In this document: in pieces, positions 8,740-23,885 of the stretch
Layout of the letters: the number at the start of each line of letters is the position of its first letter
Position numbering within the stretch: the first letter of the stretch is position 1
DNA from: Opitutia bacterium
GTDB taxonomy: Bacteria > Verrucomicrobiota > Verrucomicrobiia > Opitutales > UBA953
Assembly: GCA_947377865.1 (NCBI GenBank)
Contig: CANCHK010000012.1
Span: 1 to 45,908, forward strand
Direction: 5' to 3'
Length of the DNA: 45,908 bases
The notes under the pieces: model-generated
Databases searched by the model: none
Told to the model about the DNA's origin: nothing
Seen by the model: only the letters and a program-made list of their open reading frames with translations
Position numbers and translations under genes: made by a program

Positions 8740-9558
8740 TCACTTCACGCCCTTGGGTGGAGCGGCCGTGGGGGGTTGCGCCTTAGCTGGTGCGTCGCGA
8801 TCTTCCACGACCTTGAGGGTGATGCGTTTGCTTTCACCTTGGGCTTCCGAGATGAGGTAAAGTTTGCGGACGGAGTTCATGTGGAAGACTCGCCCAGAGT
8901 AGACGAGCCGTTCTTTTTCTTCTTCCGTCGTCAGTATCTGCAGGTCGTAGTACTCGTTGTTCTTGGCACCAGGTCGGGCCGTTTTTGAACCTTTTGGGCC
9001 GATATTCAGGTCTCCTGACGGGAGTCGGATTACGATGGGGAATGAGCAGAGGTTAAGGTATCGGTTACTCCCCATGGGGCTTGAGCCTGGGTTGTCGGAC
9101 AAGGCGACGATGCCGTTCCCTAAGCCAGGTGTTACGAGGAGGATGAGGTGAAGTCTTCCTTCGTTGGCCGGAAGGTCGATCCAGGCAAACGGTGGAGTGC
9201 CCACGGGGGCGTATTGTCTCGTGGAAGTCTTGGCTCTCACTCCTTGGGTCGGTTTGGTTTTCTTCCGATCGTTTTCTTCCTCCTTGGTGCTATCGATGAC
9301 GGAAGGGACCGCGGTGGACTTCATCTCTAGGAGTTCCAGTCGGGTGGGGCCTTGATAGACGACTTCGTCGGTCAGCATGTCCGTGGCAATCACGAGGCCC
9401 TCGGCTTTCTTGTCATGCATGAGCCCGATGTCCATGAGCGGTTGCGTCATCGAGAGGAACTTGAGGCGCGCGTCGATTCTGGGGGCCTCTTGGGCGGGCA
9501 CAGGCAGAAAGGGGAGCGTCCAAGCGGCGAACGCGAACAGGAATATTTTAGATTTCAT
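8740..9558 (-). CDS. Exported protein of unknown function, partner of the giant prepilin-like gene
   Basis: The 272-residue product has a clear signal peptide (MKSKIFLFAFAAW..., probably cut after PAQ near residue 23) and no membrane helix afterwards. The mature protein has a Lys/Glu-rich stretch near residues 90-110. A likely beta-rich core includes FPIVIRLPSGDLNIGPKG and the following YYDLQILTTEEEKERLVYSG. The C-terminal tail is Pro/Ala/Lys rich. I do not recognise a family. Its start codon overlaps the end of the upstream giant prepilin-like gene by 11 bases (ATGAAATCTAA), which points to translational coupling and a shared role at the cell surface. It ends directly against recJ. Confidence 0.7.
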   Translation of the reverse strand: MKSKIFLFAFAAWTLPFLPVPAQEAPRIDARLKFLSMTQPLMDIGLMHDKKAEGLVIATDMLTDEVVYQGPTRLELLEMKSTAVPSVIDSTKEEENDRKKTKPTQGVRAKTSTRQYAPVGTPPFAWIDLPANEGRLHLILLVTPGLGNGIVALSDNPGSSPMGSNRYLNLCSFPIVIRLPSGDLNIGPKGSKTARPGAKNNEYYDLQILTTEEEKERLVYSGRVFHMNSVRKLYLISEAQGESKRITLKVVEDRDAPAKAQPPTAAPPKGVK

Positions 9559-12500
9559 TGGCTTTGAGCCAGCGCATGGAGATCACCTTGAAGCGCCGTC
9601 CGAGTACGTTGTTTACCTTGGTAAGGGCGGTGCTGACCGAGGCGTCGGTCGCAGAGGAAGGGGCGATTTTGAGAGGACGCGGCGCGCTGTTACCCGTCTC
9701 CGGCGCGTTGGTTGGGTCGACGAATTCAGGGAGACGCTGCACAACGACTTCCATCCAGGCCGAACCGGTTTCGCCGCTACTCTGGGCGGCTTCGCCAAAG
9801 CAGCGCAGGGTGAAGGTGTCGGAATGGGTCGTCAGGGCTGAGCCCAGACTTTGTAGAAGGTCCGATTGCAGGAGGTTGCCAGGGGCGGCGAGCGCTGTGT
9901 GGAGTGGGTTAGCACTCAAGACCGGACGGGAGATCTCGACGTTCTCAGGGTTGGGGAAGGTGCCAGCGGTCGCCGTTGCCAACTTGCTTGTGGTTATCTC
10001 GTAATTACCGGTCTTCTTTGAAAGGGGTGAATAGGGCGTGGCTCCCGTGTTATCGCGGTCGGCACGCAGGATGGCGGCCTGTAATGTTCCCGTACGATTG
10101 GCCCATGTGTCGGTTGAAAGGAAACGATTGATGAACTCGGAGAGGCCGAGGTAAGGCGTAGCTGGCTTGGTGAGTCCGCCGAAGAGACGGGCACCTGGCG
10201 TCCTCACGATGTCGCGCTCAGAGCGTTGGCTGAGGCCAAAGCGTAGCTTGTTTTCATCGACGATTGCCTTGGCGAGAGCCGCAATCTGTGTGTCGGAGAG
10301 GTTGGCGAATCCTGACCAGTTGGACGGATCGCCGATGTTGTTCGCTGCTGGCGTAACGGCGCTGGCCTTTCGCTGGATACGCGGGAAGCGGGCATTGGTA
10401 TCGGCTGCGGGGTAGCTCTTGGAGAGATTGGCGATGGCGAAAGCCTTAGCGGAGCCGAGGAGCGAGGTCCAAGCCTCGACCGAGGTAGAATTCACATTAA
10501 AGGCGCCCTTGTTCAGTAGCACTGATGCCGTGCGGCGGTAGTCGGCAAGGGCAGTCTTTAGGGTTTCCGCGTCTTTGCCCGAGCCCTCGAGGCTGAAGCG
10601 CGGATTATCCAGAGGGGTGCCGTCGACCACGAAATTTTTGATGACCTCGGAGGCGGATTTGAGTTCGTGATCGGGGTCGGAGGCGAGTGTCTTGCTGGAG
10701 CTCTTTGTTGTGATGTCCGGGGGCGTCGCCGTCACCGGCGTAACCGCGCCGGCGATTCCCATCTTCATCCATGGGGCGATGCTGGAGAGGAAGAAACCGT
10801 CCCACAGCGCTGCGTTCAGGAGGTAGGTCTCGTCGAGCTCCGTCCAGTTGGCCCCGTTTTCCTGGTAGGCCTTGGAGGCTTCCACGTAGGGACTGGCGAA
10901 GCTGTTGCCGATGCTGAGAAGGGGTTGCTGGTCGCGGACGCCGAGGTTGGCGTGGGCGAAGTGGGCGAGCGACGTCGGTTGGACTAAGGGTATCTCAGCC
11001 AGCACGACGGTGTCGGAGCCGTTGGAGGACATCGAGTAGCCGCCGTAGGCTTTCTTGCCGTTGGTGCCGGGGGGGAATTCTAATAGGTTCTCCCATGCGC
11101 CATTGCGAACGCTGAGCTGGTAGCTCGGGGTGGCGCCTCGATATCCAGCTGAGGCTCCGCTGATTCCAGGTCTCCGCCCTCCAGCGCTAGCGCGTTGCAC
11201 CGCAGCGAGAGGGTTGGAGTGGGTGAGTGAGGGGAAGGGGGCACCAGCGGCATCGGCCGGCTTGGCGGTGATATCAATCACCGAGATTAGATCAGGTTCC
11301 AGTGTGGGTTGGGTGCTTCCGGGGAGTCCGTCCAAGGTCTTGTTGCGGACGTGTCGCCAGCTCAGGAAGAACTTCTCCCCAGGGTTCGGATATTTGGTGG
11401 AGTTAATGTCCGTGAAGACAATCTCCGAGGCTTCGCTGTTGTTGTAGAAGAAATTTGTTTTCTTCAGGGACGCGCTGGTCGAGCTGCTGCTGTCCAGGAT
11501 TAACTCGTCCTTCGGGCGGCAGGCAATGGCGTGGCGTATTCGGATATTATCCGCAGGAATGATTTCCATCCCGATGGGCGATGCGATGTCAAAGGCGGCT
11601 TCGGCGGCCGTGCCAAGATTCCAGTCGAGCACGTTATCACGGAACCCCCCTCGGGTGCTGTAGGCGTTACCCAGCACGATATCCTTGCTCCATTCGCCGA
11701 ACTTGGGTTCGCAGGAGAAGACGCGAAATTCGCCGGGTTCCAATGTGATGGGTGTGATGGGTGTGCTTGTCCCTGCATCGCCTTCGCTCGTGTCGTTGGC
11801 TAGGTAGAGTCGGAAGGTGTCGTCATCGTCTACTTCGCCGCTCTGTCTTTTAAAGAAGTCGGTGAGTGAAGTCTCGAAGATTGCAGGTGAACCGACGCCG
11901 TATTGCTTGAAGCGAAACTTCCACCCAGCGATGTCAGCTACGGACAGGGCGACCCCGAATGGTCGTTTGACCGTGGATCGCGAGGTGCTGGCATCGGGCT
12001 GCCAGGTCATGCGCACGTTGTAAGGATTATGCATCACGACGATTGGCGTGATGTTGATACGAAGGTCGACGGTCTCGACTTGGTACCAGAAGATATTTTT
12101 ACCGATTTTAATCTGTTTCCATTCGAACCACTGCATCTTGTTGACGCTGAAAGCTAGCGAGATGCGTTGTACGTAGGGGGTGGCCGAAACCGCCAGAGGG
12201 CGAGTTACGATACTCCCGGTGTCGCCGTTAAGCATGTCAGAGGCGTTGGGGTTAAGGGCGCCGCTAGAAGTCGTCTGGTCAGCGTTGTAGATGTCAGAAT
12301 AGCCGTAGATGCGGTTGCGCAGGCTGTTGTCAGAGAGTCCGCTGCTATAAGGCGTACCGTTTGGGTGGGCCGCCGCGACGTTGGGCCAGAGTGTCCGGGC
12401 CAGTAATGTCGGGGTCGTTGTGGTGCGATCCCCGCCGGTCGCGGCCGACCAACCGAGGGATTTATAGAGTCGGTGATAGTCTCGCAGTGCCCACCAAGTC

Positions 12501-13639
12501 GGCCCGCGCAGCGTGAGAATGTCACTACTCCCGGAAGGCTTATGGGTATGGGTGAAGATGGGCGCAGCGTAGAACTCTTTGATGCCGAACTGAGTGTTGA
12601 GCACTGGCATTGGCATGTCGGCGAAGGCGGAGACCTCCGGGTCCAAGCCGACGGCGTAATCTCTTCCGACGTGTGTAGCGGCTGCGCCGGCTGCGCCTTG
12701 TCCAAATTCGGTGGCGGCGAACTGGTCGTCGGCCAGCTCGAATGCGGTCGAGAGGTCGCGCTTGAGTCCGCCATGAAGCGAATCCGAAAGGACGCCGGAC
12801 GAGACGGTGGTAATGTCGTGGAAGTGTTTGCGGATATCCGTCGAGCCTGCGGCGAAGAGCGCCGCGTCGACGCCACTGATAAGGGGGGCTTCCTTGAGTT
12901 GGCTGAAGTAATTCAGCTGGGCTGGATTAGCCAGATTTTTGAGGAGCCCTTGTGTGATGGGGCTTCTTACTGAAATGAGTTGCTCGGCATTGTTGGGGTC
13001 TTCCGAGCGGGTCTCGCGCAGGTTGACCCTTGCCTTGATGCCTTCGTCGCCGATCCAATAGGCGTAAGCGCCGGATACATCGTTGTCGGGTAGGCTGATC
13101 TTGGGCAACGAGACGAGCCCGCTGGGCTTGTTGCTGTCGGCAGCGGCCGCGCTGGCGGTGCCAACCAGCGGGACCAACGTGTCGTTGCCTGGGTTATATC
13201 CGGTCTGCCAAGGGGGCCAGTAACCCGAAGGGTACGTCGGCGAGGTGCCTGTCTGGAAGAGCGATACCGATTGCGTGCCGGCTGTTTGGTCGGCGCGACC
13301 TGAGATTAGCCATGAGGGAGGAAGGTCGGGAAAATCCGAACGCCAGACTCCGGTCCACATTGGGTTCCTGACCGTGGCGGTGGTCGCTTCTGGTTGCGTG
13401 ATCTCAGCCCGTGCGGTGGCGCGTCGGTCCGGGCCGGCTTCCTGCTGGAGGTGCGCGAGCGCCAGGCGCATTGAGACGACCGCATTGAGCCGCGCCCGGG
13501 TGGCCAGTTGCTGACTCATCGCCATCCGCGATTCCACGGTGACGAAAGCTGAGATGGTGAGCACAAGCATGACCATGGCTGCCATCATCGTGAGCGACAG
13601 GATGAGGCTGAAGCCGGGTCTACGCTTGGTGTGTTTCAT
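9548..13639 (-). CDS. Giant prepilin-like protein, Verru_Chthon cassette protein A type
   Basis: The preferred start at 13639 (MKHTKRRPGFSLILSLTMMA) gives 1363 residues. It opens with a basic patch, a G-F prepilin-peptidase-like site and one long hydrophobic helix, as in type IV pilin or PilX-like pseudopilins; the usual Glu at position +5 is absent. The post-helix stretch LARLN-like (LATRARLNAVVSMRLALAHLQ) followed by EAGPDRRATARAEI matches what I recall of the Verrucomicrobia-specific cassette protein A family. The rest is a large, probably beta-rich exported region full of Ser, Thr, Asn and Gly. An in-frame start at 13831 would add 64 residues ahead of the pilin motif and is unlikely. The next gene overlaps its end. 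Cassette partners B, C and D are not visible nearby. Confidence 0.8.
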   Translation of the reverse strand: MKHTKRRPGFSLILSLTMMAAMVMLVLTISAFVTVESRMAMSQQLATRARLNAVVSMRLALAHLQQEAGPDRRATARAEITQPEATTATVRNPMWTGVWRSDFPDLPPSWLISGRADQTAGTQSVSLFQTGTSPTYPSGYWPPWQTGYNPGNDTLVPLVGTASAAAADSNKPSGLVSLPKISLPDNDVSGAYAYWIGDEGIKARVNLRETRSEDPNNAEQLISVRSPITQGLLKNLANPAQLNYFSQLKEAPLISGVDAALFAAGSTDIRKHFHDITTVSSGVLSDSLHGGLKRDLSTAFELADDQFAATEFGQGAAGAAATHVGRDYAVGLDPEVSAFADMPMPVLNTQFGIKEFYAAPIFTHTHKPSGSSDILTLRGPTWWALRDYHRLYKSLGWSAATGGDRTTTTPTLLARTLWPNVAAAHPNGTPYSSGLSDNSLRNRIYGYSDIYNADQTTSSGALNPNASDMLNGDTGSIVTRPLAVSATPYVQRISLAFSVNKMQWFEWKQIKIGKNIFWYQVETVDLRINITPIVVMHNPYNVRMTWQPDASTSRSTVKRPFGVALSVADIAGWKFRFKQYGVGSPAIFETSLTDFFKRQSGEVDDDDTFRLYLANDTSEGDAGTSTPITPITLEPGEFRVFSCEPKFGEWSKDIVLGNAYSTRGGFRDNVLDWNLGTAAEAAFDIASPIGMEIIPADNIRIRHAIACRPKDELILDSSSSTSASLKKTNFFYNNSEASEIVFTDINSTKYPNPGEKFFLSWRHVRNKTLDGLPGSTQPTLEPDLISVIDITAKPADAAGAPFPSLTHSNPLAAVQRASAGGRRPGISGASAGYRGATPSYQLSVRNGAWENLLEFPPGTNGKKAYGGYSMSSNGSDTVVLAEIPLVQPTSLAHFAHANLGVRDQQPLLSIGNSFASPYVEASKAYQENGANWTELDETYLLNAALWDGFFLSSIAPWMKMGIAGAVTPVTATPPDITTKSSSKTLASDPDHELKSASEVIKNFVVDGTPLDNPRFSLEGSGKDAETLKTALADYRRTASVLLNKGAFNVNSTSVEAWTSLLGSAKAFAIANLSKSYPAADTNARFPRIQRKASAVTPAANNIGDPSNWSGFANLSDTQIAALAKAIVDENKLRFGLSQRSERDIVRTPGARLFGGLTKPATPYLGLSEFINRFLSTDTWANRTGTLQAAILRADRDNTGATPYSPLSKKTGNYEITTSKLATATAGTFPNPENVEISRPVLSANPLHTALAAPGNLLQSDLLQSLGSALTTHSDTFTLRCFGEAAQSSGETGSAWMEVVVQRLPEFVDPTNAPETGNSAPRPLKIAPSSATDASVSTALTKVNNVLGRRFKVISMRWLKANEI

Positions 13640-13843
13640 GCCGGAACTACCCTCGAGCAGTGTGAATATTAATATACGAGAGAGGCAGGGTTGCAAGGGC
13701 CTACCTTCTTGTAGTGAGCGGCCTGTTATCGGTCCTAATCCGTCATTTAGCCGATAGGCCGATATATTCTTAATCTGACCCAAGAATAAAGGCATGAAAT
13801 AAGTGTTTAAAGTCCGAGGAAGATGCGGCAAGATTCAGCCACG
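13640..13843. promoter_or_regulatory. Divergent intergenic region with weak promoter-like sites
   Basis: This 204-bp gap between divergent genes is visibly AT-richer than its surroundings. On the minus strand, TTGCAA (13696-13691) and TATTAA (13674-13669) are 16 bases apart and could be the -35 and -10 of the giant prepilin-like gene. On the plus side there is an inverted pair TATCGG/CCGATA (about 13728 and 13753) with a further CCGATA nearby, and an AT-rich stretch GATATATTCTTAAT. Assignments are by eye only. Confidence 0.35.
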
Positions 13844-14426: not shown

Positions 14427-15185
14427 ATGTCGCAGTCTGGGTTCATGCTGAAGCGTCACCCCTTGCTTTCTTCCGTCCTGCTGCTGGGCGGAGCCGTCCT
14501 CCTTTTCTTCTGGTCGCGTCCAGTCTCCGCCGCCCCTGTGGCGGTTCCGGTGAAATATGAAGCCTGTGCCGCTTCGTCCGATGGCATCGGCAAAGTCTGG
14601 TTGGGCCGCGAAATCGCCCAGGTGATGGGCCATCCTGGCATTGGCTGGCTGGAGCGAACCGATCGCGAGAAAGAAGAGGCGCCTTCGAAGGCGATTGCCT
14701 TGCTGGAGCTGGCACCCGACGCCGTCCTAGCCGATATCGGCGCGGGCTCGGGCTATTATTCTTTCCGTATCGCCCCGAAACTGCCGCAGGGCAAGGTCGT
14801 CGCGGTGGATATCCAGCCGGAGATGCTGGATTTCCTGAAGGTCGAATCCGCCAAGCTCGGAGTGAAGAACGTGCAGCCCCATCTGGGTGCAATCGATGAC
14901 GTGAAGCTCCCCCCAGCCTCGATCGATGCTGCCCTAATGGTCGACGCCTACCATGAATTCGACCACCCGGTGGAGATGCTGGCCTCGCTCCGTTCGGCCT
15001 TGAAATCAAAAGGCCGTATCTACCTCCTGGAGTATCGCGCGGAGGATGACAACGTGCCGATCAAGCCGCACCACAAGATGACCGAGGCGCAGGCCCGCAA
15101 GGAATTCGAAGCCGCTGGCTTCCGATTCGTCGTCAACAAGCCAGACCTGCCGTGGCAGCACCTGCTGATCTTTGAGAAGCCTTGA
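14427..15185 (+). CDS. Exported class I SAM-dependent methyltransferase-like protein
   Basis: The 252-residue protein has an N-terminal hydrophobic signal or anchor (HPLLSSVLLLGGAVLLFFW, about residues 11-29) followed by PVSAAP, a possible cleavage site. A Rossmann methyltransferase fold follows, with motif I ADIGAGSGYYSFRIA near residue 105, the acidic ribose-binding loop VVAVDIQPEML, and post-motif VDAYHEFDHPVEML. The stretch GREIAQVMGHPGIGWLERTDRE precedes the fold and is shared by other exported methyltransferase-like proteins I recall from Planctomycetes and Verrucomicrobia. SAM outside the cytoplasm is not expected, so the location or chemistry is puzzling. The ATG at 14445 is an alternative start six codons in. 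It is preceded by a small Cys-rich exported gene. Confidence 0.8.
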   Translation: MSQSGFMLKRHPLLSSVLLLGGAVLLFFWSRPVSAAPVAVPVKYEACAASSDGIGKVWLGREIAQVMGHPGIGWLERTDREKEEAPSKAIALLELAPDAVLADIGAGSGYYSFRIAPKLPQGKVVAVDIQPEMLDFLKVESAKLGVKNVQPHLGAIDDVKLPPASIDAALMVDAYHEFDHPVEMLASLRSALKSKGRIYLLEYRAEDDNVPIKPHHKMTEAQARKEFEAAGFRFVVNKPDLPWQHLLIFEKP

Positions 15186-16094: not shown

Positions 16095-17582
16095 TTAGGC
16101 GCCGACGCTCTTCTTGATATCCTTGAGCTGCTGGAACTCCGGCTTCGCGGTGTAATACTTGTCGAGCGGGTAGCAGCCCGAGATGAGTCCGTTGCGCGGG
16201 GCGGTCGTGCAGTCGCTAAAAGTGCGGCAGATGAACTTAGTCTCCATCGCGCCGTTCTTCGCGGCATCAGCGAGCATGGCGGGATAGCTGAGCACCGCTC
16301 GGCCCACGCCGATGGCGTCGCTGCCGCCGGTGCGCAGGATGTGCTGTGCGAGGTGTGGGAGGTATTCCTGGACGTAGCTGAGGCCTGAACTCACGACGAT
16401 CATGCCAGCAGGCGCCTGTGCGCGGACCTCGCGGACCACGCGCACCTGACGGGCGACGTCGATAAGCGGGTCGTGCGCCGGCTGGTAGCCGTCGCTGGGC
16501 GGGTAGGCCGCCGGACGCTGGAGGTGGGGGTTATAGTAGGGCGAGCCGGCGGTGGTGTTGAGGATTTTTACGCCCAGTTCACCGAGCAGTTGCACGAAGG
16601 CGAAGGTCTCGGTGAGGTCGATCTCGGTGGGCTTCGCCTTATTGACGCCGAAAGCGTAGTGATAGGGTAGGCAGGCGGAGAAATCCTCGGGGACGCCGGG
16701 ACCGAGCTTGCCGGGCACGCTCAGGGCGGGGTCCGGACGGAAAGGCACCATGTCAAAGAGGCTGAGGCGCACGCCGATGTCGATGGCGTTACCATCGGCA
16801 CGGATACCGGCGATGATGTCGCGCAGGATGCGGGTACGGTTCTCGAAGGAGCCGCCGAACTTGCCCGGACGCGTGAAGGCGCCGAGGAATTCGTGCAGCA
16901 GGTAGCCGTGGCAATGCTTGATGTCCACGAAGTCGGCGCCGCAATCGCGGGCCACGCGGGCGGCCTTGACGTAGCAGCGGATCAACTCCTCGACGTCGGC
17001 GTCGGTCAGCACCTGGGCGTCCGAGGTCACGTTGAACTTCTTGTCCAGGATCGGGTGGCGGTAGGCCACGCGGGATTCCCAGCGCTTCTTGTCATGCGGG
17101 CGGCAGAAACGGCCGGAGTGCGTGAGCTGGAAGCCGATGACCAGGTCGTCGACCGAACCCCAGCGGGCGAGGTGCTCAGCCTTGAGGATACCGACGAGTT
17201 CCGTGATGCCGGGCTGGTTCTGGTCGTTGATGATCAGCTGGTTCATGTTCGCCCGGCCGTCGGCGCGCACAGCCATGGCTTCGGCGCCGCAGATCAGCTT
17301 GGCGCCGCTCGCGCCGAAGCGCTGCCAGCGGCGCTTCATCTCTTCGGAGATGCCGCCGGTGGTGGTGCCGTCCCAGCCTTCCATCGGATGGATGGCGATG
17401 CGGTTGCCGATGGTCTTGCCATTGACCTTCGTGCGGGCGATCGGCTGCGAGAGGGGATTGCCGGCCCCGGCTTCGATGGTGTCCTCAAGTGAGAGATCGG
17501 CGCCGATGCTGGCGCAATGGGCGCGGAAATCAGCGACGGTCTTGAGCGTCGCGACGCGGGTGAGTTTGAAGGGGGTGGTCAT
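16095..17582 (-). CDS. Old yellow enzyme family NADH:flavin oxidoreductase
   Basis: A predicted FMN enzyme with a TIM barrel that reduces an activated alkene or related group. The start at 17582 (MTTPFKLTRVATL) gives 495 residues; the open frame continues upstream to 18128 only as an artefact across the neighbouring gene. Visible motifs are IAIHPMEGWDG (63-72), FQLTHSGR (151-158), the OYE signature KHCHGYLLHEFLG (222-234), then GGSFENRTR (243-251) and the phosphate-binding IGVGRAVLS near 424. A Cys motif near the C-terminus (Cys452, 458, 470) recalls the [4Fe-4S] site of FadH-type enzymes but lacks the second Cys, with Phe nearby. It lies 8 bp after the DapA-like gene, so they form one transcript. 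The substrate is unknown. Confidence 0.85.
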   Translation of the reverse strand: MTTPFKLTRVATLKTVADFRAHCASIGADLSLEDTIEAGAGNPLSQPIARTKVNGKTIGNRIAIHPMEGWDGTTTGGISEEMKRRWQRFGASGAKLICGAEAMAVRADGRANMNQLIINDQNQPGITELVGILKAEHLARWGSVDDLVIGFQLTHSGRFCRPHDKKRWESRVAYRHPILDKKFNVTSDAQVLTDADVEELIRCYVKAARVARDCGADFVDIKHCHGYLLHEFLGAFTRPGKFGGSFENRTRILRDIIAGIRADGNAIDIGVRLSLFDMVPFRPDPALSVPGKLGPGVPEDFSACLPYHYAFGVNKAKPTEIDLTETFAFVQLLGELGVKILNTTAGSPYYNPHLQRPAAYPPSDGYQPAHDPLIDVARQVRVVREVRAQAPAGMIVVSSGLSYVQEYLPHLAQHILRTGGSDAIGVGRAVLSYPAMLADAAKNGAMETKFICRTFSDCTTAPRNGLISGCYPLDKYYTAKPEFQQLKDIKKSVGA

Positions 17583-17590
17583 GGCGAGGT

Positions 17591-18709
17591 TCAGCGAGGG
17601 ATGTTGAGGCGATGGGAGATGCGACGGGTGCGTAGCATCGCTTCGCTCATGCGGGCGGCTTCGTCGGTGCCCCGGACATCCTTGCAGGCCGGGTGCGGTT
17701 CGGGAGAGGCGATGACGCCGAGTTGATGGAGCAGGTGCGCCGTGCTGTGCTTGTAGGCGGCCGCGCTGCCCTTGGCGTCGAGCCGGAAGACCTGGTCTTC
17801 GAGCGACTGGAAGGCTTCGAAGAGTTTGTAGACACGCGTGTCGAAGCAACCAGTCCCCGTGGGGAACTTCTTTCCTGGGGCGCCGTCGTCGAGCCACATG
17901 TCCTTGGCCGCGCAGATTTGCGGGGCGGCACTGCTGGCCGCGCCGATGAGGAGGGGCAGGCCGGTCTTGATCGCAGTAGCGATACCGTAGTCGTCGCCGC
18001 TGTGCGGGGCGAAATCGAGCTTCAGGTCCTTGCACATCGCGGCCCAGTAGAGGAAATGGGGTTCGTCCAGCGTGCTCACCTTGCCGCCTACGAACTTGGG
18101 GTGGATCGCGAGCTGGTGCAGGAGCCAAGGCTCATAGGGCGTGGCCCAGGAGACGAAGGAAGGCTCGAGGGCGTGGACGATGCCGGGTCGAACAAGCCAT
18201 TCGGCGATTTGGTAGTAGCCGTCGCGGCGACGCTCGGGGTCGAGCGAGTTGAGCCACTTCGACGTCATGATCATCACCTCGCAGTTGTCGTGCGCTTGGA
18301 CGAGGTCCAGGAGTGCACGATAGCGCTCGGCCTTGAAGGAGGTGTCGTCCTGCGCACCACGGGCGGTGATGCCGGCGATGAAACGCATGTCGGGGAAGGC
18401 CAGGCGGAATTGGCGGAGCACCTCGGCGTACATCTTGTCGTCGAGGTCGAAGATATAACCCGTATCGGCGTTAAGCACCGGCACGAGTTCGACGCCGTAA
18501 TGATCGGCAGCGGCCTTTTGCCAGCGGATCTCGGAGACGAAGCTCTTCCAGTCCGGCTGGCCGTTCTGGAAGGGCAGGAGTACCGCCGAACATAGGCGGG
18601 CCTTGGTGCGGTGGTCGACGAGGGCTTCCTCGGCCGTCCAGGCCCATTTCGTCGCGGACCAAGGCGTCGCCGGCGTCAGGTCTTCGGGGCGGTCGATCAG
18701 CGGCTTCAT
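17591..18709 (-). CDS. DapA/N-acetylneuraminate lyase superfamily protein
   Basis: Members of this TIM-barrel family use a Schiff-base lysine to cleave or dehydrate 2-keto acids. The 372-residue protein is longer than the usual ~300. The early strand SAVLLPFQNGQPDWKSF (41-57) corresponds to the family TPF motif. FVGGKVSTLDEPHFLYW (206-222) corresponds to the strand with the catalytic lysine, making Lys210 the candidate. HSGDD (236-240) matches the later GDD loop. The usual catalytic Tyr of YNxP is not evident; LEPSFVSWATPYEPW occupies that region. The ATG at 18709 faces the transporter gene across a 118-bp gap. It is most likely a catabolic aldolase or dehydratase rather than true DapA. Confidence 0.75.
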   Translation of the reverse strand: MKPLIDRPEDLTPATPWSATKWAWTAEEALVDHRTKARLCSAVLLPFQNGQPDWKSFVSEIRWQKAAADHYGVELVPVLNADTGYIFDLDDKMYAEVLRQFRLAFPDMRFIAGITARGAQDDTSFKAERYRALLDLVQAHDNCEVMIMTSKWLNSLDPERRRDGYYQIAEWLVRPGIVHALEPSFVSWATPYEPWLLHQLAIHPKFVGGKVSTLDEPHFLYWAAMCKDLKLDFAPHSGDDYGIATAIKTGLPLLIGAASSAAPQICAAKDMWLDDGAPGKKFPTGTGCFDTRVYKLFEAFQSLEDQVFRLDAKGSAAAYKHSTAHLLHQLGVIASPEPHPACKDVRGTDEAARMSEAMLRTRRISHRLNIPR

Positions 18710-18827
18710 GGGACGAAAGCCTTAGCAGGTAATTGGACGCTTGAAAACATTTGTTGCACGGCATGCCGCCAAGCAGAAATCGCCCCTTGAAGGCTTGGGT
18801 TATCTCCTTCTGATGGGAGCACACCCC
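18710..18827. promoter_or_regulatory. Shared divergent control region with palindrome CGGCATGCCG
   Basis: This 118-bp gap separates the two divergent catabolic units. It contains a perfect 10-bp palindrome CGGCATGCCG at 18759-18768, a candidate regulator site, with AT-richer sequence just before it (TTGAAAACATTTGTTG). GGGAG at 18816-18820 is the ribosome binding site that fixes the transporter start at 18828. No regulator gene is encoded in the locus. Confidence 0.4.
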
Positions 18828-20144
18828 ATGCACGACGCCAAAGACACCCGCGACGCAATTACCAAGGGCATGCAGATGACCCTGCTCGCCGGCTTCCTCG
18901 GTTGGATGATGGATGGTTACGAGCAGGCGCTCTTCCCGACCCTCGCCGGGCCGGCACTGAAAAGCATGGTCCCCGTCGATATCGTCGCGTTGGGCGCCAA
19001 GGCAATCAATGGTTGGGTCGGCGGCTGGATGGGCATCATCACCTCCGCTTTCCTCGTCGGCGCTGCGCTCGGTGGTGCGGCCTTCGGTTGGCTCGGCGAC
19101 CGCATCGGACGCGTGAAGGCGATGTCTTTCAGTATCCTCTTCTACTCCATCTTCAGCGGTGTCTGCTATTTCGCGACCGACCCCACGCACCTCGCCGCCG
19201 CGCGTTTCATGGCGGCCCTCGGCATGGGCGGAGAATGGGCGCTCGGCGTGGCGCTGGTGATGGAAGCGTGGCCGGAACGTCATCGCTCCAAGATGGCCGG
19301 CGCCATTGGCATGGCCGCCAACCTCGGCATGGTCCTCGTCGGCTGCATGGCGCTGGCTTACCCGGCCGACGGCAACTCGTGGCGGATCCACTTCCTGATT
19401 GGCGCCTCGCCGGCAATCCTGACCTTGCTGATCCGTCTCTTCGTTCCCGAGTCCGAGAAGTGGGAGCGTTCCGCCGCGAAGGAGGCTGCTTCGGCTACTC
19501 CGGCACGTTCCAAAATCGACGAGGTCTTCAGCGGCGAGCTCCGCGGAACGACCATCGCCGGCATCCTGATGGTATCTGTCGTCTTTGTCGGTACCTGGGG
19601 CGCGGTGCAGTGGGTTCCCCTTTGGATTGGCGACCTCGCCGGACCGGAGAACCCTCGTGCCAAGGCCCTTGCGATGGTCATCGTCTCTGTTGGTGCGTGC
19701 GTCAGCACCGTCGTCGCACCTTTGCTGCTGGCTAGGCTACGTCGACGCCTCGGCTACCAACTGCTTTGCCTCTTCGCCTTAGCCGCCACCATCTGGATCT
19801 ACCGAACGCCCGCAGTCTGGAGCGGACCAAAGCTATTTGATATCTTCCCGTGGGTCATGGCGCTCAAGGTCTTTACCCTCGGGATGGCTGCCACAGCCTT
19901 CTTCGGCTTCTTCCCGCTCTACCTACCTGAACTCTTCCCGACTCGCGTTCGCGCGACAGGGCAGGGCATCTGCTACAATACCGGCCGTCTGGTGGCCGTG
20001 CCGTTTGTGCTCCTGAGCGGCAAGCTGGTCGAGAGTCTCGGTGGTTACCAGCAGGCCGCCGCCGCCATCACGCTTGTCTACGCGGTCGGTCTGTTTGTTG
20101 CCCTACTGGGCAAGGAAACCTCCGGTCAAGCGCTGCAGGACTGA
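18828..20144 (+). CDS. MFS transporter, organic-acid:H+ symporter type
   Basis: A twelve-helix major facilitator carrier, probably proton-coupled and in the inner membrane. The ATG at 18828 is chosen because GGGAG lies 7 bases upstream; starts at 18813 (ATG) or 18741 (TTG) extend the frame into the control region. From this start it has 438 residues. LAGFLGWMMDGYEQALFPTL resembles the first helix of the aromatic-acid/organic-acid symporter group. The loop GWLGDRIGRVKAM is the MFS motif between helices 2 and 3, and FMAALGMGGEWALGVALVMEAW is typical of helices 4-5. The enolase-family gene starts 6 bp downstream, so they form an operon. Substrate is inferred to be an acid of the pathway. Confidence 0.85.
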   Translation: MHDAKDTRDAITKGMQMTLLAGFLGWMMDGYEQALFPTLAGPALKSMVPVDIVALGAKAINGWVGGWMGIITSAFLVGAALGGAAFGWLGDRIGRVKAMSFSILFYSIFSGVCYFATDPTHLAAARFMAALGMGGEWALGVALVMEAWPERHRSKMAGAIGMAANLGMVLVGCMALAYPADGNSWRIHFLIGASPAILTLLIRLFVPESEKWERSAAKEAASATPARSKIDEVFSGELRGTTIAGILMVSVVFVGTWGAVQWVPLWIGDLAGPENPRAKALAMVIVSVGACVSTVVAPLLLARLRRRLGYQLLCLFALAATIWIYRTPAVWSGPKLFDIFPWVMALKVFTLGMAATAFFGFFPLYLPELFPTRVRATGQGICYNTGRLVAVPFVLLSGKLVESLGGYQQAAAAITLVYAVGLFVALLGKETSGQALQD

Positions 20145-20150
20145 TTTCGA

Positions 20151-21557
20151 ATGAATCCCCGCGACGTCCAAATCCGCGCGGTGCGCTGGCATGCCTTGCC
20201 GGTCACCCTGCGACTCCCTCTCAAGTTTGGCCATGAGACCGTCACGAGCGTGGTCTGTGCCCGTGTGTGCGTCACGGTCGAGAAGGCCGACGGCTCCCGC
20301 GCCGAAGGGTGGGGCGAGACCCCGCTCAGCGTCCAGTGGGTGTGGCCTTCGCAGGTTCCTTATGATGTCCGCTCGAAGGCACTGCATGATTTCTGCGACA
20401 CGCTGACCGAGGCTTATGCGGCCTTCGGTGCCCGCGGCCATGCGATGGAGGTCGGCCATGATTTCCTCGAGGAAGCTTTGCCGGGTGTTCTAAAGAAATT
20501 CAACGCCGGTCTGCCCGAGGGCGTCGCGATTCCCACGCTCGCCGCGTTGGTCTGCTGCTCTCCTTTCGATCTGGCCCTGCATGATGCCTATGGCGTGGCC
20601 AATGGCGTGCCGACCTACTCGACCTACTGCGCCCCATGGATGAACCGCGACCTGTCTTCGTTTGTTACGCCGGCCGCCGACGCCACGGGCGTGTCTTTCG
20701 CCGGTCGTTATCCCGCTGACTATTTCCGCTCGCCGGTCACGCCTAAACTCCTCGCCTGGCATCTCGTCGGAGGGCTCGACTACCTCACGCTCGCCGAAGC
20801 CGGCGCGAACAAAGTAGCGGACGGTTATCCTTCCTCGCTCGACGAATGGATTAAGACCGACGGCCTGAAGGCCCTTAAGGTCAAATTACGAGGTAACGAC
20901 GCGCCCTGGGATTTCGAACGCCTGAAGCGTATCGCCGAGATCGGCCTACCGCTCGGCGTCGAACTCTTCACCGCCGACTTTAATTGCACGGTGATGGACC
21001 CGGCCTACGTGAATGGCGTCCTTGATCGCGTGAAGGCCGAGCTACCCGAACTTTGGAAGCGCCTCAGCTACGTCGAGCAGCCGTTCCCGTATGAGCTCGA
21101 GGAGCACCCTATCGATGTCCATTCGGTGAGCCAACGCATGCCGCTCTTCCTCGACGAAAGCGCGCACGATTGGCGCATCGTCCGTCTTGGCCGTGAACTC
21201 GGTTGGACCGGTGTGGCCCTCAAGACCTGTAAGACCCAGACTGGCGCGATCCTCAGCCTCTGCTGGGCTCGCGCCCACGGGATGCAGCTGATGGTCCAGG
21301 ATCTCACCAATCCCATGATGGCTCAGATGACGCATATTCTGCTCGCCGCCCATGCCCCGACGATCGCTGGCGTGGAGACCAATGGCATGCAGTTCTATCC
21401 CGCAGCTTCCGCCGCCGAGGCCAAGGTCCACCCACTCCTCTACTCGCGTCGCGACGGCCAGGTCGACGGCTCCAGCCTGCACGGCCTTGGTTTCGGCTAT
21501 CGCCTCGCTGAAATCGGCCGCGAATTGCCCCCGGTCCGTCGTTCCGCCGGTCGCTGA
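20151..21557 (+). CDS. Enolase-superfamily enzyme, MLE-like
   Basis: Enolase-superfamily enzymes abstract a proton next to a carboxylate and give racemisation, dehydration or cycloisomerisation. The 468-residue protein is long for the family (usually ~370). The N-terminal capping domain includes AEGWGETPL (51-59). In the barrel, LKVKL gives Lys243 and Lys245 (KxK). Mg2+ ligand candidates are Asp276 (FTADFN), Glu309 (YVEQPF) and Asp335 (LDES). Lys358 in ALKTCKTQTG is the candidate opposing base, so this is the muconate-lactonising/dipeptide-epimerase layout rather than the mandelate-racemase His/Asp pair. Extra sequence at about residues 155-235 is unusual. It lies in an operon 6 bp after the transporter. 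Substrate unknown. Confidence 0.82.
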   Translation: MNPRDVQIRAVRWHALPVTLRLPLKFGHETVTSVVCARVCVTVEKADGSRAEGWGETPLSVQWVWPSQVPYDVRSKALHDFCDTLTEAYAAFGARGHAMEVGHDFLEEALPGVLKKFNAGLPEGVAIPTLAALVCCSPFDLALHDAYGVANGVPTYSTYCAPWMNRDLSSFVTPAADATGVSFAGRYPADYFRSPVTPKLLAWHLVGGLDYLTLAEAGANKVADGYPSSLDEWIKTDGLKALKVKLRGNDAPWDFERLKRIAEIGLPLGVELFTADFNCTVMDPAYVNGVLDRVKAELPELWKRLSYVEQPFPYELEEHPIDVHSVSQRMPLFLDESAHDWRIVRLGRELGWTGVALKTCKTQTGAILSLCWARAHGMQLMVQDLTNPMMAQMTHILLAAHAPTIAGVETNGMQFYPAASAAEAKVHPLLYSRRDGQVDGSSLHGLGFGYRLAEIGRELPPVRRSAGR

Positions 21558-21614
21558 GACCAATCGGCTTGCCTGCGGAGGGCGGGGAGGGTTTGTTCAC
21601 GGGACACCACCCCC

Positions 21615-22556
21615 ATGATGCTCCGTTCGCTCCTCCTCTGCCTGCTGTCGCTTAGCGTGTTCGCCGCCGACGCCCCTAAGCGCAAGGTCCTCTTCTTCAC
21701 CAAGTCTTCGGGCTACGAGCACGAGGTCATCTCTTATAAGAAGGGTCAGCCCAGCTTCGCCGAGAAGCAGCTCACCGAAATCGGCGCTGCCAATAACATC
21801 GAATTCGTCTTCTCCAAGGACGGCTCGAAATTCTCCCCCGAGTATCTCGCCCAGTTCGACAGCGTGATGTTCTACACCACCGGCGACCTCTGCTCCGAAG
21901 GCACCGACAAGAATCCGCCGATGTCCCCCGCCGGCAAGCAGGCGCTCTTCGATTTCGTGAAATCCGGCAAGGGCTTCGTGGGCACGCACTCCGCCGCCGA
22001 CACCTTCCACACCGACAACGAAGCCGTGAAGGGTCCGGAGCGTTTCGCCAATCACGGTGACAAGGCCGACGCTTACGTCTGCTTCCTTGGCGCCGAGTTC
22101 ATCCGCCACGGCAAGCAGCAGGTCGGTACGAACAAGGTCATCGACAAGACCTTCCCGGGTTTCGAGAAGGTCGGCGATGCGTTCTCTTTCGAGGAAGAAT
22201 GGTACACCCTCAAGGACTTCCGCCCCGAGATCCACGTTCTGACTGTCTTTAATGACCCCGCCCTCGAAGGTGACGACTACAAGCGCCCGGCCTACCCCAA
22301 CACCTGGGCCAAGAACGAAGGCAAAGGCCGCGTCTTCTACACCGCCATGGGCCACCGTGAAGACGTTTGGACCAACCCGACCTTCCAGCAGATTCTAATC
22401 GGTGGCCTCAGGTGGGCCAACGGCGATGCCAAGGCTCCGGACATGTCCCCGAATCTCCTCAAGGTCGCCCCGGGCGCCATGACGAATCAGCCTTACACGG
22501 CGACACCGGCCCCCAAGCCCAAGGCGCCGGCTAAGAAGACCGAAGCTAAGAAGTAA
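21615..22556 (+). CDS. Exported ThuA-domain protein
   Basis: ThuA domains have a glutamine-amidotransferase-like fold and are common in Planctomycetes and Verrucomicrobia, often beside sugar-catabolism genes; their chemistry is poorly defined. The 313-residue protein has a signal peptide (MMLRSLLLCLLSLSVFAADA). The ThuA core follows from residue 23 (KVLFFTKSSGYEHEVI). It includes VMFYTTGDL, GKGFVGTHSAADTFH, the EEEWYTLKDF segment, and GRVFYTAMGHREDVW near the end. A Pro/Lys/Ala-rich tail (APKPKAPAKKTEAKK) closes it. It follows the enolase-family gene by 57 bp and precedes a terminator-like hairpin, so it is probably the last gene of the operon. Confidence 0.9.
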   Translation: MMLRSLLLCLLSLSVFAADAPKRKVLFFTKSSGYEHEVISYKKGQPSFAEKQLTEIGAANNIEFVFSKDGSKFSPEYLAQFDSVMFYTTGDLCSEGTDKNPPMSPAGKQALFDFVKSGKGFVGTHSAADTFHTDNEAVKGPERFANHGDKADAYVCFLGAEFIRHGKQQVGTNKVIDKTFPGFEKVGDAFSFEEEWYTLKDFRPEIHVLTVFNDPALEGDDYKRPAYPNTWAKNEGKGRVFYTAMGHREDVWTNPTFQQILIGGLRWANGDAKAPDMSPNLLKVAPGAMTNQPYTATPAPKPKAPAKKTEAKK

Positions 22557-22566
22557 GTCCTCACGC

Positions 22567-22590
22567 AGGGCGGGCCGCAAAGCCCGCCTT
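22567..22590 (+). terminator. Terminator-like hairpin without a strong T-run
   Basis: The stem AGGGCGGGC (22567-22575) pairs with GCCCGCCTT (22582-22590) around loop CGCAAA, with one G-U pair. It is followed by GCTAATTTCT, so termination would be weak or protein-assisted. Confidence 0.55.
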
Positions 22591-22622
22591 GCTAATTTCT
22601 AGGCGGTTTCAACTGTCTCCCT

Positions 22623-23885
22623 ATGCGCGACACCCCCGCCGAAGCCACCAAGCTCAGCGAGCTTTCTTCGCACCAGAAGAAGTCTGGCTTCGCGGCCTGG
22701 TTGGGTTGGTTCTTTGACGGCCTCGACCTGCACCTCTACACGCTTGTCGCCACGGTCTTCGTGGCCGAGCTGCTGATGGTCAAGGAGTCTGACCCAGACG
22801 TGGCTCGATATGGCGCAATCGTTCAGGCTGCCTTCCTGCTCGGTTGGGCCTTGGGCGGAGCGTTCTTTGGCGTCATCGGTGATCGTCTCGGCCGCAGTCG
22901 CACGCTTGTCCTCACGATACTGACCTACGCGCTCTTCACCGGTCTGTCGTTCTTCGCGCACACCTGGTGGCAGCTGATGATCTTCCGCTTTCTTGCGGCG
23001 CTAGGCATTGGCGGCGAATGGGCGGTCGGTGCCTCGCTGCTCTCCGAGACCTGGCCGAAGAAGTGGCGCCCCTGGATTGCCGCGGTCCTGCAGTGTGCGG
23101 TCAACTTCGGCATCCTCGCCGCGATCGCGGCCGTCTTCATTCTGCAGCAGTTCCCCGGCTATCAACCGCGCTGGGTATTTCTCATTGGCGTCCTGCCGGC
23201 CTTCGTGACGCTTTGGATCCGCAAGGAGGTCCCCGAGACCGCCGAGTGGTCGGCTGAGAAGGGGAAGCGGGAAGTTCCGTCGATGGCTGGACTGTTCGGG
23301 CGCGATATCCGCCGCACGACATTCATTGCATCGCTGCTCTGTGCAATCTCCCTGACCGGGCATTGGTGTTTCATGTTCTGGCAGCAGGCCTTCATCCGGA
23401 ATCATCCGGCCGTGATTGACGGCTCGCCCGCCTCCAAGGCTAAGGTTGTATCCACCGCGCTCTTCTGGGTTATCTCGGCCTCCGTGGTCGGCAACTTTGC
23501 TTCCGGCTGGGCCGCCCAGCGCTTCGGTTATCGTCGTGCACTAGCGGCGTTCTTCGGCGTCTACTTCGTCCTAATGGCGCTTACGTTCGCCTTTCCTTGG
23601 AGTCTATCAGAGACCTATGTCCTCTACGCTGGCATCGGTTTCTGCCAGGGTGTCTTCGGTCTCTTCACGATGGCTCTGCCGCCGCTCTTCCCGACCTTAC
23701 TCCGCACGACGGGCGCGGGCTTTAGCTATAATATTGGGCGCGTTTTCGCGGCCGTGGGCACGGTCTTCTTCGGTATCTTCGCCAAAGTCGGCGATTTCAG
23801 TTCGGTGCTGCTCTACGCTTCGTTCTTATTCCTGCCCGCCGCGATCCTGGCGATGTGGTTGCCGACCGAAGAGGCTACTTCTTAA
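22623..23885 (+). CDS. MFS transporter, second organic-acid:H+ symporter-type carrier
   Basis: The 420-residue, twelve-helix major facilitator protein belongs to the same broad group as the product of 18828-20144 but is clearly diverged from it. WLGWFFDGLDLHLYTLVATV forms helix 1. GVIGDRLGRSRTLV is the MFS signature loop and FRFLAALGIGGEWAVGASLL is helix 4. PPLFPTLLRTTGAGFSYNIGR near residue 355 is a close counterpart of the other carrier's late helix. It sits 66 bp after the ThuA gene beyond a hairpin, so it may have its own transcript or read through. It overlaps the convergent EVE-domain gene by 11 bp. Confidence 0.88.
   Translation: MRDTPAEATKLSELSSHQKKSGFAAWLGWFFDGLDLHLYTLVATVFVAELLMVKESDPDVARYGAIVQAAFLLGWALGGAFFGVIGDRLGRSRTLVLTILTYALFTGLSFFAHTWWQLMIFRFLAALGIGGEWAVGASLLSETWPKKWRPWIAAVLQCAVNFGILAAIAAVFILQQFPGYQPRWVFLIGVLPAFVTLWIRKEVPETAEWSAEKGKREVPSMAGLFGRDIRRTTFIASLLCAISLTGHWCFMFWQQAFIRNHPAVIDGSPASKAKVVSTALFWVISASVVGNFASGWAAQRFGYRRALAAFFGVYFVLMALTFAFPWSLSETYVLYAGIGFCQGVFGLFTMALPPLFPTLLRTTGAGFSYNIGRVFAAVGTVFFGIFAKVGDFSSVLLYASFLFLPAAILAMWLPTEEATS

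Follow-up and report, generated by a model that had tools for sequence, protein, structure and literature searches.

The closest counterparts of the locus described here are operons of Proteobacteria in which a Gfo/Idh gene adjoins a gene for a DUF993 protein, in places with a sugar-isomerase-like TIM barrel (SPI) gene and an enolase-superfamily gene – the solved structure 4dnh is one such DUF993 protein, SMc04132 of S. meliloti – together with the sugar cluster of the Paenarthrobacter plasmid pAO1. The function of these operons is itself unsettled: the pAO1 record carries the GO term xylose catabolism on AldH, SMc04130-35 appear as a table entry without function in the available passages of PMC12542648, the word xylose does not occur in the available passages of PMC10494377, and no paper on DUF993 was found in the open-access literature. 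The locus considered here lies on a stretch of 45,908 nucleotides (hereafter the window; contig CANCHK010000012.1 of an Opitutia bacterium) and comprises two divergent arms: one carries genes for an old yellow enzyme (OYE)-family flavoprotein and a DapA-like protein, the other genes for a major facilitator superfamily (MFS) carrier (MFS1), an enolase-superfamily protein, a ThuA-domain protein and a second carrier (MFS2).

The conserved core of this locus is the pair of OYE and DapA-like genes, which is kept beyond the window's own clade; in relatives the place of the OYE gene is taken by the gene of a well-conserved Gfo/Idh protein, an NAD-type sugar dehydrogenase unrelated to OYE, and the two showed no overlap in the genomes sampled. 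We consider the chances about evenly balanced that the locus is a module for the catabolism of an imported carbohydrate acid, in the non-phosphorylative style of the Weimberg, Dahms and Entner-Doudoroff pathways. That the OYE subfamily (marked by a Lys-for-His change and a three-Cys remnant) is a non-homologous isofunctional replacement of the Gfo/Idh dehydrogenase, perhaps together with SPI, in a widespread but uncharacterised pathway of the DUF993 superfamily and an enolase of the muconate lactonizing enzyme (MLE) type, is a more tentative proposal, plausible though short of probable. A preliminary description of the window knew of no characterised pathway with exactly this combination of families, and none was found in the PDB or in the open-access literature on OYE, sugar acid and enolase, on the DapA family, SPI and glycerate kinase, on OYEs of Verrucomicrobia, on Opitutae and on pAO1. 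The families are known; as far as that literature reaches, their combination and the alternation of OYE with Gfo/Idh are not described.

Redox partners of the DapA-like gene

A scan of GTDB yielded 103 relatives of the DapA-like protein, and the best 80 loci, many of which end at contig ends, were kept. Most are labelled Verrucomicrobiota, with a few named Polynucleobacter, Pirellula, Roseimaritima or Planctomycetaceae; the nearest relatives come from metagenome-assembled genomes titled Opitutae, Opitutus or Verrucomicrobia. All six genes stand together in 17 of the 80 loci, every one of them inside the single 26-row clade that holds the window in the tree of DapA-like proteins. Within that clade the flanking genes (for a methyltransferase-domain protein (MT), EVE and TatD) mostly hold their positions too, so that synteny of the six genes is, taken alone, weak evidence. 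The joint conservation that the preliminary description had put forward as its check is thus confined, for the full set, to the window's clade, whereas the OYE-DapA pair extends beyond it and the enolase follows at the level of whole genomes.

The redox partner of the DapA-like gene was then read from the same 80 loci, at identity cut-offs of 50% and 55% for OYE and the verrucomicrobial Gfo/Idh protein (hereafter c4, beside which SPI is found). The partner is an OYE in 38 loci, c4 in 24, neither in 18 and both in none; the gap between partner and DapA-like gene is at most 39 bp in 36 of the 38 OYE loci and at most 107 bp in all 24 c4 loci. In a quick tree of 81 DapA-like proteins (32 of the 78 inner branches are open) the partner changes at least five times. 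An uncharacterised GH88-like protein (L194:209-1630, L204:10845-12290, L244:11028-12410), recognised by weak PF07470 matches, is encoded close to OYE in 4 of the 20 OYE loci; in the c4 set, 10 of 23 loci have it as a neighbour, and the best pairs between the two sets are 64-67% identical.

A further line of evidence concerns whole genomes. We searched 286 genomes of the class for enolase, OYE, the DapA-like protein, c4 and a bridging DUF993-like group (N5), with cut-offs that were placed after the gap in identity had been seen and that kept 62 of the 85 matching genomes for enolase, 62 of 67 for OYE and 16 of 39 for the DapA-like protein; N5 was counted in 25 genomes and c4 in 100. Neighbourhoods were examined in all 15 further DapA-like genomes, 20 of the 62 OYE genomes, 20 of the 62 enolase genomes and 20 of the 100 Gfo/Idh genomes. 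OYE and c4 never share a genome (0 of 286, where independence of the genomes would predict 21.7), and one or the other is present in each of the 40 genomes that have a DapA-like or N5 protein. The enolase accompanies the window-type DapA-like gene in 16 of 16 genomes (3.5 expected) and OYE in 40 of 62 (13.4 expected), its gene being mostly unlinked to the OYE and DapA-like genes. The Fisher values of these co-occurrences ignore relatedness. Among the 42 families with OYE or c4, 19 hold OYE only, 19 hold c4 only and four hold both kinds, in different genomes; within these four, the two kinds would fail to overlap by chance with a probability of 1e-4, 0.015 or 0.06 when 0, 3 or 6 empty genomes are assumed per family. 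Together the OYE-DapA pair, the co-occurrence of the enolase and the alternation of OYE with Gfo/Idh make a stronger case than that of the preliminary description.

Comparable arrangements are found around DUF993 itself, members of which were seen in Proteobacteria, Actinomycetota and Verrucomicrobiota. Five alphaproteobacterial loci carry in a row an enolase homologue, a Gfo/Idh protein 61-67% identical to c4 and DUF993; in three rhizobial loci, read by clustering of open reading frames (ORFs), c4 (65-67%), DUF993 and the enolase homologue stand in a row and are followed by SPI; and the order in Paroceanicella and Nitratireductor is SPI-enolase-Gfo/Idh-DUF993-SPI. Nine annotated plasmid loci with DUF993 – not a random sample, being eight chosen from a spread list of 60 (of 147 records) plus one (H6) reached through its enolase – have Gfo/Idh nearby in six cases, SPI in seven and glycerate kinase in four, and five of the six Gfo/Idh proteins share 52-63% identity with c4, whereas the one from Rhodococcus is not an orthologue. 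Four records without usable annotation were read by their ORFs. The annotated plasmid neighbourhoods gave roles, and no settled substrate.

Conserved residues and predicted folds

Neither Pfam at E<=10 nor NCBIfam at E<=1 contains a family that the DapA-like protein matches. A PF00701 search of its own genome matched three places, the gene at 17591-18709 not among them, and by Pfam score the protein falls outside PF00701. Its AlphaFold2 (AF2) model (pLDDT 88.4) is nevertheless predicted to be a DapA-type TIM barrel, so that the DapA/NAL assignment of the preliminary description holds for the predicted fold and not for the family score. The best Foldseek match of the model is the N-acetylneuraminate lyase 5c55_B (E 3.6e-10, TM 0.77 by target), and the fourth is 4dnh (E 8.2e-10), assigned to DUF993 because it matches a member of that family over 387 aa. 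Although the window's protein has no PF06187 (DUF993) match in Pfam, the N5 group, with scores of 28.6 and 24.6 against a PF06187 cut-off of 24, bridges the two: hhalign aligned the DapA-like family with N5 over 289 columns (probability 99.2, E 7.6e-20) and with DUF993 over 152 columns (probability 87.9), in the latter case with the Lys shifted by one residue. Judged by these alignments and the modelled fold, the protein is probably a remote DapA-fold relative of DUF993. All 41 DapA-like sequences share G208-G209-K210, opposite which the N5 group has G-A-K in the alignment, as well as SGDD (237-240). In G098, a genome of the same genus that keeps OYE, MFS1, enolase, ThuA and MFS2 at 69-81% and in unchanged order, an N5-type DUF993-like protein (L189:9460-10314), 26-29% identical, occupies the slot of the DapA-like gene.

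The match of the OYE-family protein to PF00724 (cut-off 27 bits) covers residues 52-279 only. Where YqjM-type enzymes read EIHxxHGY the window's protein reads DIKHCHGY: Lys222 replaces the first His of the His-His or His-Asn pair that holds the substrate, while H225 and Y227 are kept. K222, C224, H225, Y227, C452, C458 and C470 are present, as is Phe at position 455, in 66 of 66 sequences (the distinct ones in hand, the window's included, at identities of at least 48%). The protein has three Cys where FadH/BaiCD-type enzymes have the four-Cys [4Fe-4S] motif, and no FAD/NAD domain. Since four Cys are found in a Subdoligranulum homologue (33.7% identical) and in fused homologues, and the fused forms have an FAD/NADPH-like domain, the window's OYE resembles an Fe-S OYE that is one Cys short and has lost its domain for electron input, with any cluster binding putative.

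The fused homologues with the four-Cys motif are about 900 aa long and 34-41% identical (L268:5863-8748, L269:6238-9027, L270:4156-6942, L271:3949-6642); by eye, their tail resembles the FAD/NADPH domain of the glutamate-synthase type. The Subdoligranulum homologue lies on a gut plasmid (L229:5352-14153) among ORFs that resemble, by eye, an IlvD/EDD dehydratase, LacI, SPI, a Zn-alcohol dehydrogenase, SDR and a flavoprotein of the fumarate-reductase kind, surroundings that again look like a sugar-acid setting.

The enolase C-domain match (PF13378) barely exceeds its cut-off of 29.4 bits. All 14 sequences compared, ten of them verrucomicrobial and four alphaproteobacterial, have K243, K245, D276, E309, D335 and K358, which align with like residues of 3ik4, 3u9i and 3s5s; these residues fit the KxK, the D/E/D metal ligands and the second Lys that we take to define the MLE subgroup. 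A profile search of the PDB gave 36 sequences at E<=1. The top three and several others are named generically as mandelate racemase/muconate lactonizing enzymes, the best specifically named ones are N-acylamino acid racemase, dipeptide epimerase and muconate cycloisomerase, the 3,6-anhydro-L-galactonate cycloisomerase 5xd7 appears at E 0.22, and none of the 36 is named a sugar-acid dehydratase. The preliminary description had called this protein MLE-like and proposed that the acid is dehydrated or isomerised, which is not supported as stated: the protein's residues are those of the MLE subgroup, and the specifically named nearest chains are racemases, epimerases and cycloisomerases. An AF2 model from the 14-row alignment (pLDDT 57.5) was used for no claim. 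In genomes of family f10, the matches of five of the six enolase homologues (36-38% identity) are given as interrupted by one stop codon.

A proposed carbohydrate-acid module and its alternatives

Where the preliminary description proposed that an acid is imported, dehydrated or isomerised, reduced and cleaved, the part that stands is a locus of import and catabolism, its substrate most likely a carbohydrate acid: in relatives the gene set has closer ties to carbohydrate enzymes than to those for aromatic compounds or amino acids. In the module as we picture it, MFS1 (perhaps with MFS2) would import the acid. The Lys residues and metal of the enolase-superfamily enzyme would then take a proton beside the carboxylate, the acid being epimerised, dehydrated or cycloisomerised, and the OYE flavoprotein would perform one two-electron redox step for which relatives use Gfo/Idh, often beside SPI. 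A 2-keto acid may be bound as a Schiff base at Lys210 of the DapA-like enzyme and cleaved, in a retro-aldol step, to a pyruvate-type acid and a C3 aldehyde or acid, which could enter glycerate metabolism. A PF02595-type kinase is present in six of six genomes, the window's included, which is weak support; a DUF4147-type glycerate kinase is absent from all six.

Several observations weigh against this reading. Enolase and c4 occur together in 19 genomes where 21.7 are expected, that is, with no association. Ten of the 40 aldolase-type genomes have no enolase at the cut-off, four of them (G223, G228, G263, G278) having a 33% homologue, and 18 of the 80 loci, some of them cut by contig ends, have neither redox partner nearby. 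The DapA-like region expected to read YNxP instead reads ALEPxFVxWATP, with no invariant Tyr among the 41 sequences (mapped by sequence only), and the conserved Tyr of DapA/NAL enzymes is thus seemingly absent. No characterised close relative of any enzyme in the set was found in the PDB or the open-access literature. To these are added the points on kinship, fused OYEs and enolase linkage that follow.

The strongest alternative is that OYE and Gfo/Idh are not equivalent: they would belong to two pathways that share an aldolase-type enzyme, their mutual exclusion being a matter of lineage. This is a real possibility, if not a probable one. Kinship of the genomes, partly controlled, is the main weakness of the exclusion, and with 38 of the 42 families carrying one kind only, lineage could still account for it. 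SPI is tied to Gfo/Idh (all 58 genomes with SPI have c4) and is found in none of the 62 OYE genomes, so that two different gene sets are being compared; by the same token, OYE perhaps replaces both Gfo/Idh and SPI. Moreover, five OYE genomes were dropped from the counts as fused forms (G239, and G003, G011, G020 and G047), and the last four also carry c4, their uncounted fused OYE being 35-41% identical. Against non-equivalence speak the four families that hold both kinds, the repeated change of partner within one orthologue group of DapA-like proteins (as far as the quick tree goes), and the GH88-like neighbour common to OYE and Gfo/Idh loci.

A second alternative retains only OYE and the DapA-like protein (with a distant enolase) as the pathway, and takes the arm from MFS1 to MFS2 to be adjacent by chance within the clade. 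Of the 59 genomes beyond the clade that have the enolase, 20 enolase-centred loci (L209-L228) were read, and none has a linked OYE or DapA-like gene, and the synteny of MT, EVE and TatD shows that neighbours of other kinds are kept there as well. We nonetheless hold chance adjacency to be rather unlikely, given that the enolase accompanies the DapA-like gene and OYE at genome level and that the genes for the enolase homologue, Gfo/Idh and DUF993 are consecutive in alphaproteobacterial operons.

A route for amino-acid-like compounds or betaines is improbable. It would combine an MLE-type epimerase, an OYE-type demethylase or dehydrogenase and a DapA-like deaminase, on the model of hydroxyproline-betaine catabolism; DapA-family deaminases exist, and N-acylamino acid racemases and dipeptide epimerases are among the best specifically named PDB matches of the enolase. 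However, relatives tie the genes to Gfo/Idh, SPI, GH88-like proteins, glycerate kinase and sugar ABC transporters, and Pfam scans of selected neighbour proteins, though no aimed search was made, contained no Rieske demethylase or proline racemase. Lastly, a 3-keto-sugar pathway is possible, some DapA-like loci having a 3-keto-disaccharide hydrolase and Gfo/Idh as neighbours, but was set aside as without specific support for this gene set.

The module for a carbohydrate acid, were it borne out, would offer DUF993, whose structure is solved and whose function is not established, a role that can be tested, and would connect the family with orphan groups of both enolases and OYEs. Should OYE and Gfo/Idh indeed perform one and the same step, sugar-acid catabolism has taken in a class of enzymes known for the reduction of C=C bonds. 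Thanks to the paired genomes, the replacement can be tested on a single substrate library with two purified proteins.

The locus in the window and its known counterparts

The two tight divergent units of the preliminary description, with gaps of 8, 118 and 6 bp, were confirmed by an ORF check on the window (Table 1), and Pfam matches bear out its OYE, ThuA and two MFS assignments. All six ORFs are taken to be genes because the GC content at their third codon positions is 0.75-0.86 and relatives exist. The source assembly is incomplete (75.7% complete, 2.32 Mb).

Table 1. Features of the divergent locus, in coordinates of the window.
Feature	Position	Strand	Evidence or remark
OYE-family flavoprotein, 495 aa	16095-17582	-	PF00724, 98.6 bits
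DapA/NAL-fold protein (predicted), 372 aa, putative Schiff-base Lys210	17591-18709	-	AF2 fold; 8 bp from OYE gene
Divergent intergenic region, 118 bp	18710-18827	.	LysR gene at the same site in eight close relatives and in G251
MFS carrier 1 (MFS1)	18828-20144	+	PF07690, 108 bits
Enolase-superfamily protein, MLE-type residues	20151-21557	+	PF13378, 32.4 bits; 6 bp after MFS1
ThuA-domain protein, pathway membership uncertain	21615-22556	+	PF06283, 131 bits
MFS carrier 2 (MFS2), pathway membership uncertain	22623-23885	+	PF00083 and PF07690, 82 bits

The region between the arms contains, as previously described, a perfect palindrome of 10 bp, CGGCATGCCG, at 18759-18768. It is missing in all five aligned relatives and so provides no evidence of an operator, a role that was rejected. 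Neither in the window nor in G098 is the gap wide enough for the LysR gene that separates the arms in the relatives named in Table 1. A hairpin at 22565-22592 lies between ThuA and MFS2 (the terminator scan gave 10 terminator-like sites against a shuffle mean of 7.1), and MFS2 may or may not share a transcript with ThuA, given this hairpin. A sigma-70 promoter scan of 8.5 kb was uninformative, its one match not exceeding shuffles (mean 1.4).

MFS1 scores 162 bits with TIGR00895 (cut-off 418.55), and its nearest NCBIfam models, all below cut-off, are aromatic-acid and sialate symporters; a relative (37%) directly precedes the enolase homologue in L224. A relative of MFS2 (56-57%) follows the DapA-like gene by about 3 kb in L086 and L096. 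Close ThuA homologues are linked only within the window's clade, and a ThuA protein is near the enolase homologue in L226. With little support beyond that clade, ThuA and MFS2 are doubtful members of the pathway. The N-terminus of ThuA (21615-21680) resembles a signal peptide by eye, so that ThuA, unlike the other enzymes, may act outside the cytoplasm. Among the flanking genes, MT (14427-15185; PF13847, 59.7 bits) has a hydrophobic, signal-like N-terminus and is conserved beside the locus. A 1427-aa ORF at 9548-13831 has, by eye, a prepilin-like stretch near its start, and a similar ORF family (c7) stands beside the locus in 17 of 79 clustered loci.

Compared with the known enzymes nearest to it, the window's OYE departs from YqjM-type and Fe-S OYEs in the Lys for the first His, the number of Cys and the absent FAD/NAD domain; it shares with YqjM-type enzymes (1z41, 3gr7) the OYE barrel and the His and Tyr of the HxxHGY region, and with FadH/BaiCD-type enzymes a Cys-rich tail. 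With the non-phosphorylative pentose and hexose pathways (Weimberg, Dahms and non-phosphorylative Entner-Doudoroff) the locus has in common a redox enzyme, an enolase-superfamily enzyme, a DapA-family lyase and a cluster without a sugar kinase; it differs from them in that the redox enzyme is an OYE, the enolase residues are of MLE rather than dehydratase type, and the cluster has no lactonase or semialdehyde dehydrogenase. From the Gfo/Idh-DUF993 operons, the closest system, it is set apart by an OYE in the place of Gfo/Idh, by the absence of SPI from the cluster and by the distance of the DapA-like protein from DUF993. The likenesses to that system are a DapA-fold DUF993 protein beside a Gfo/Idh protein 52-67% identical to c4, an enolase homologue in which all six residues recur (in L256, L259 and L261), and sugar, carboxylate or MFS carriers nearby.

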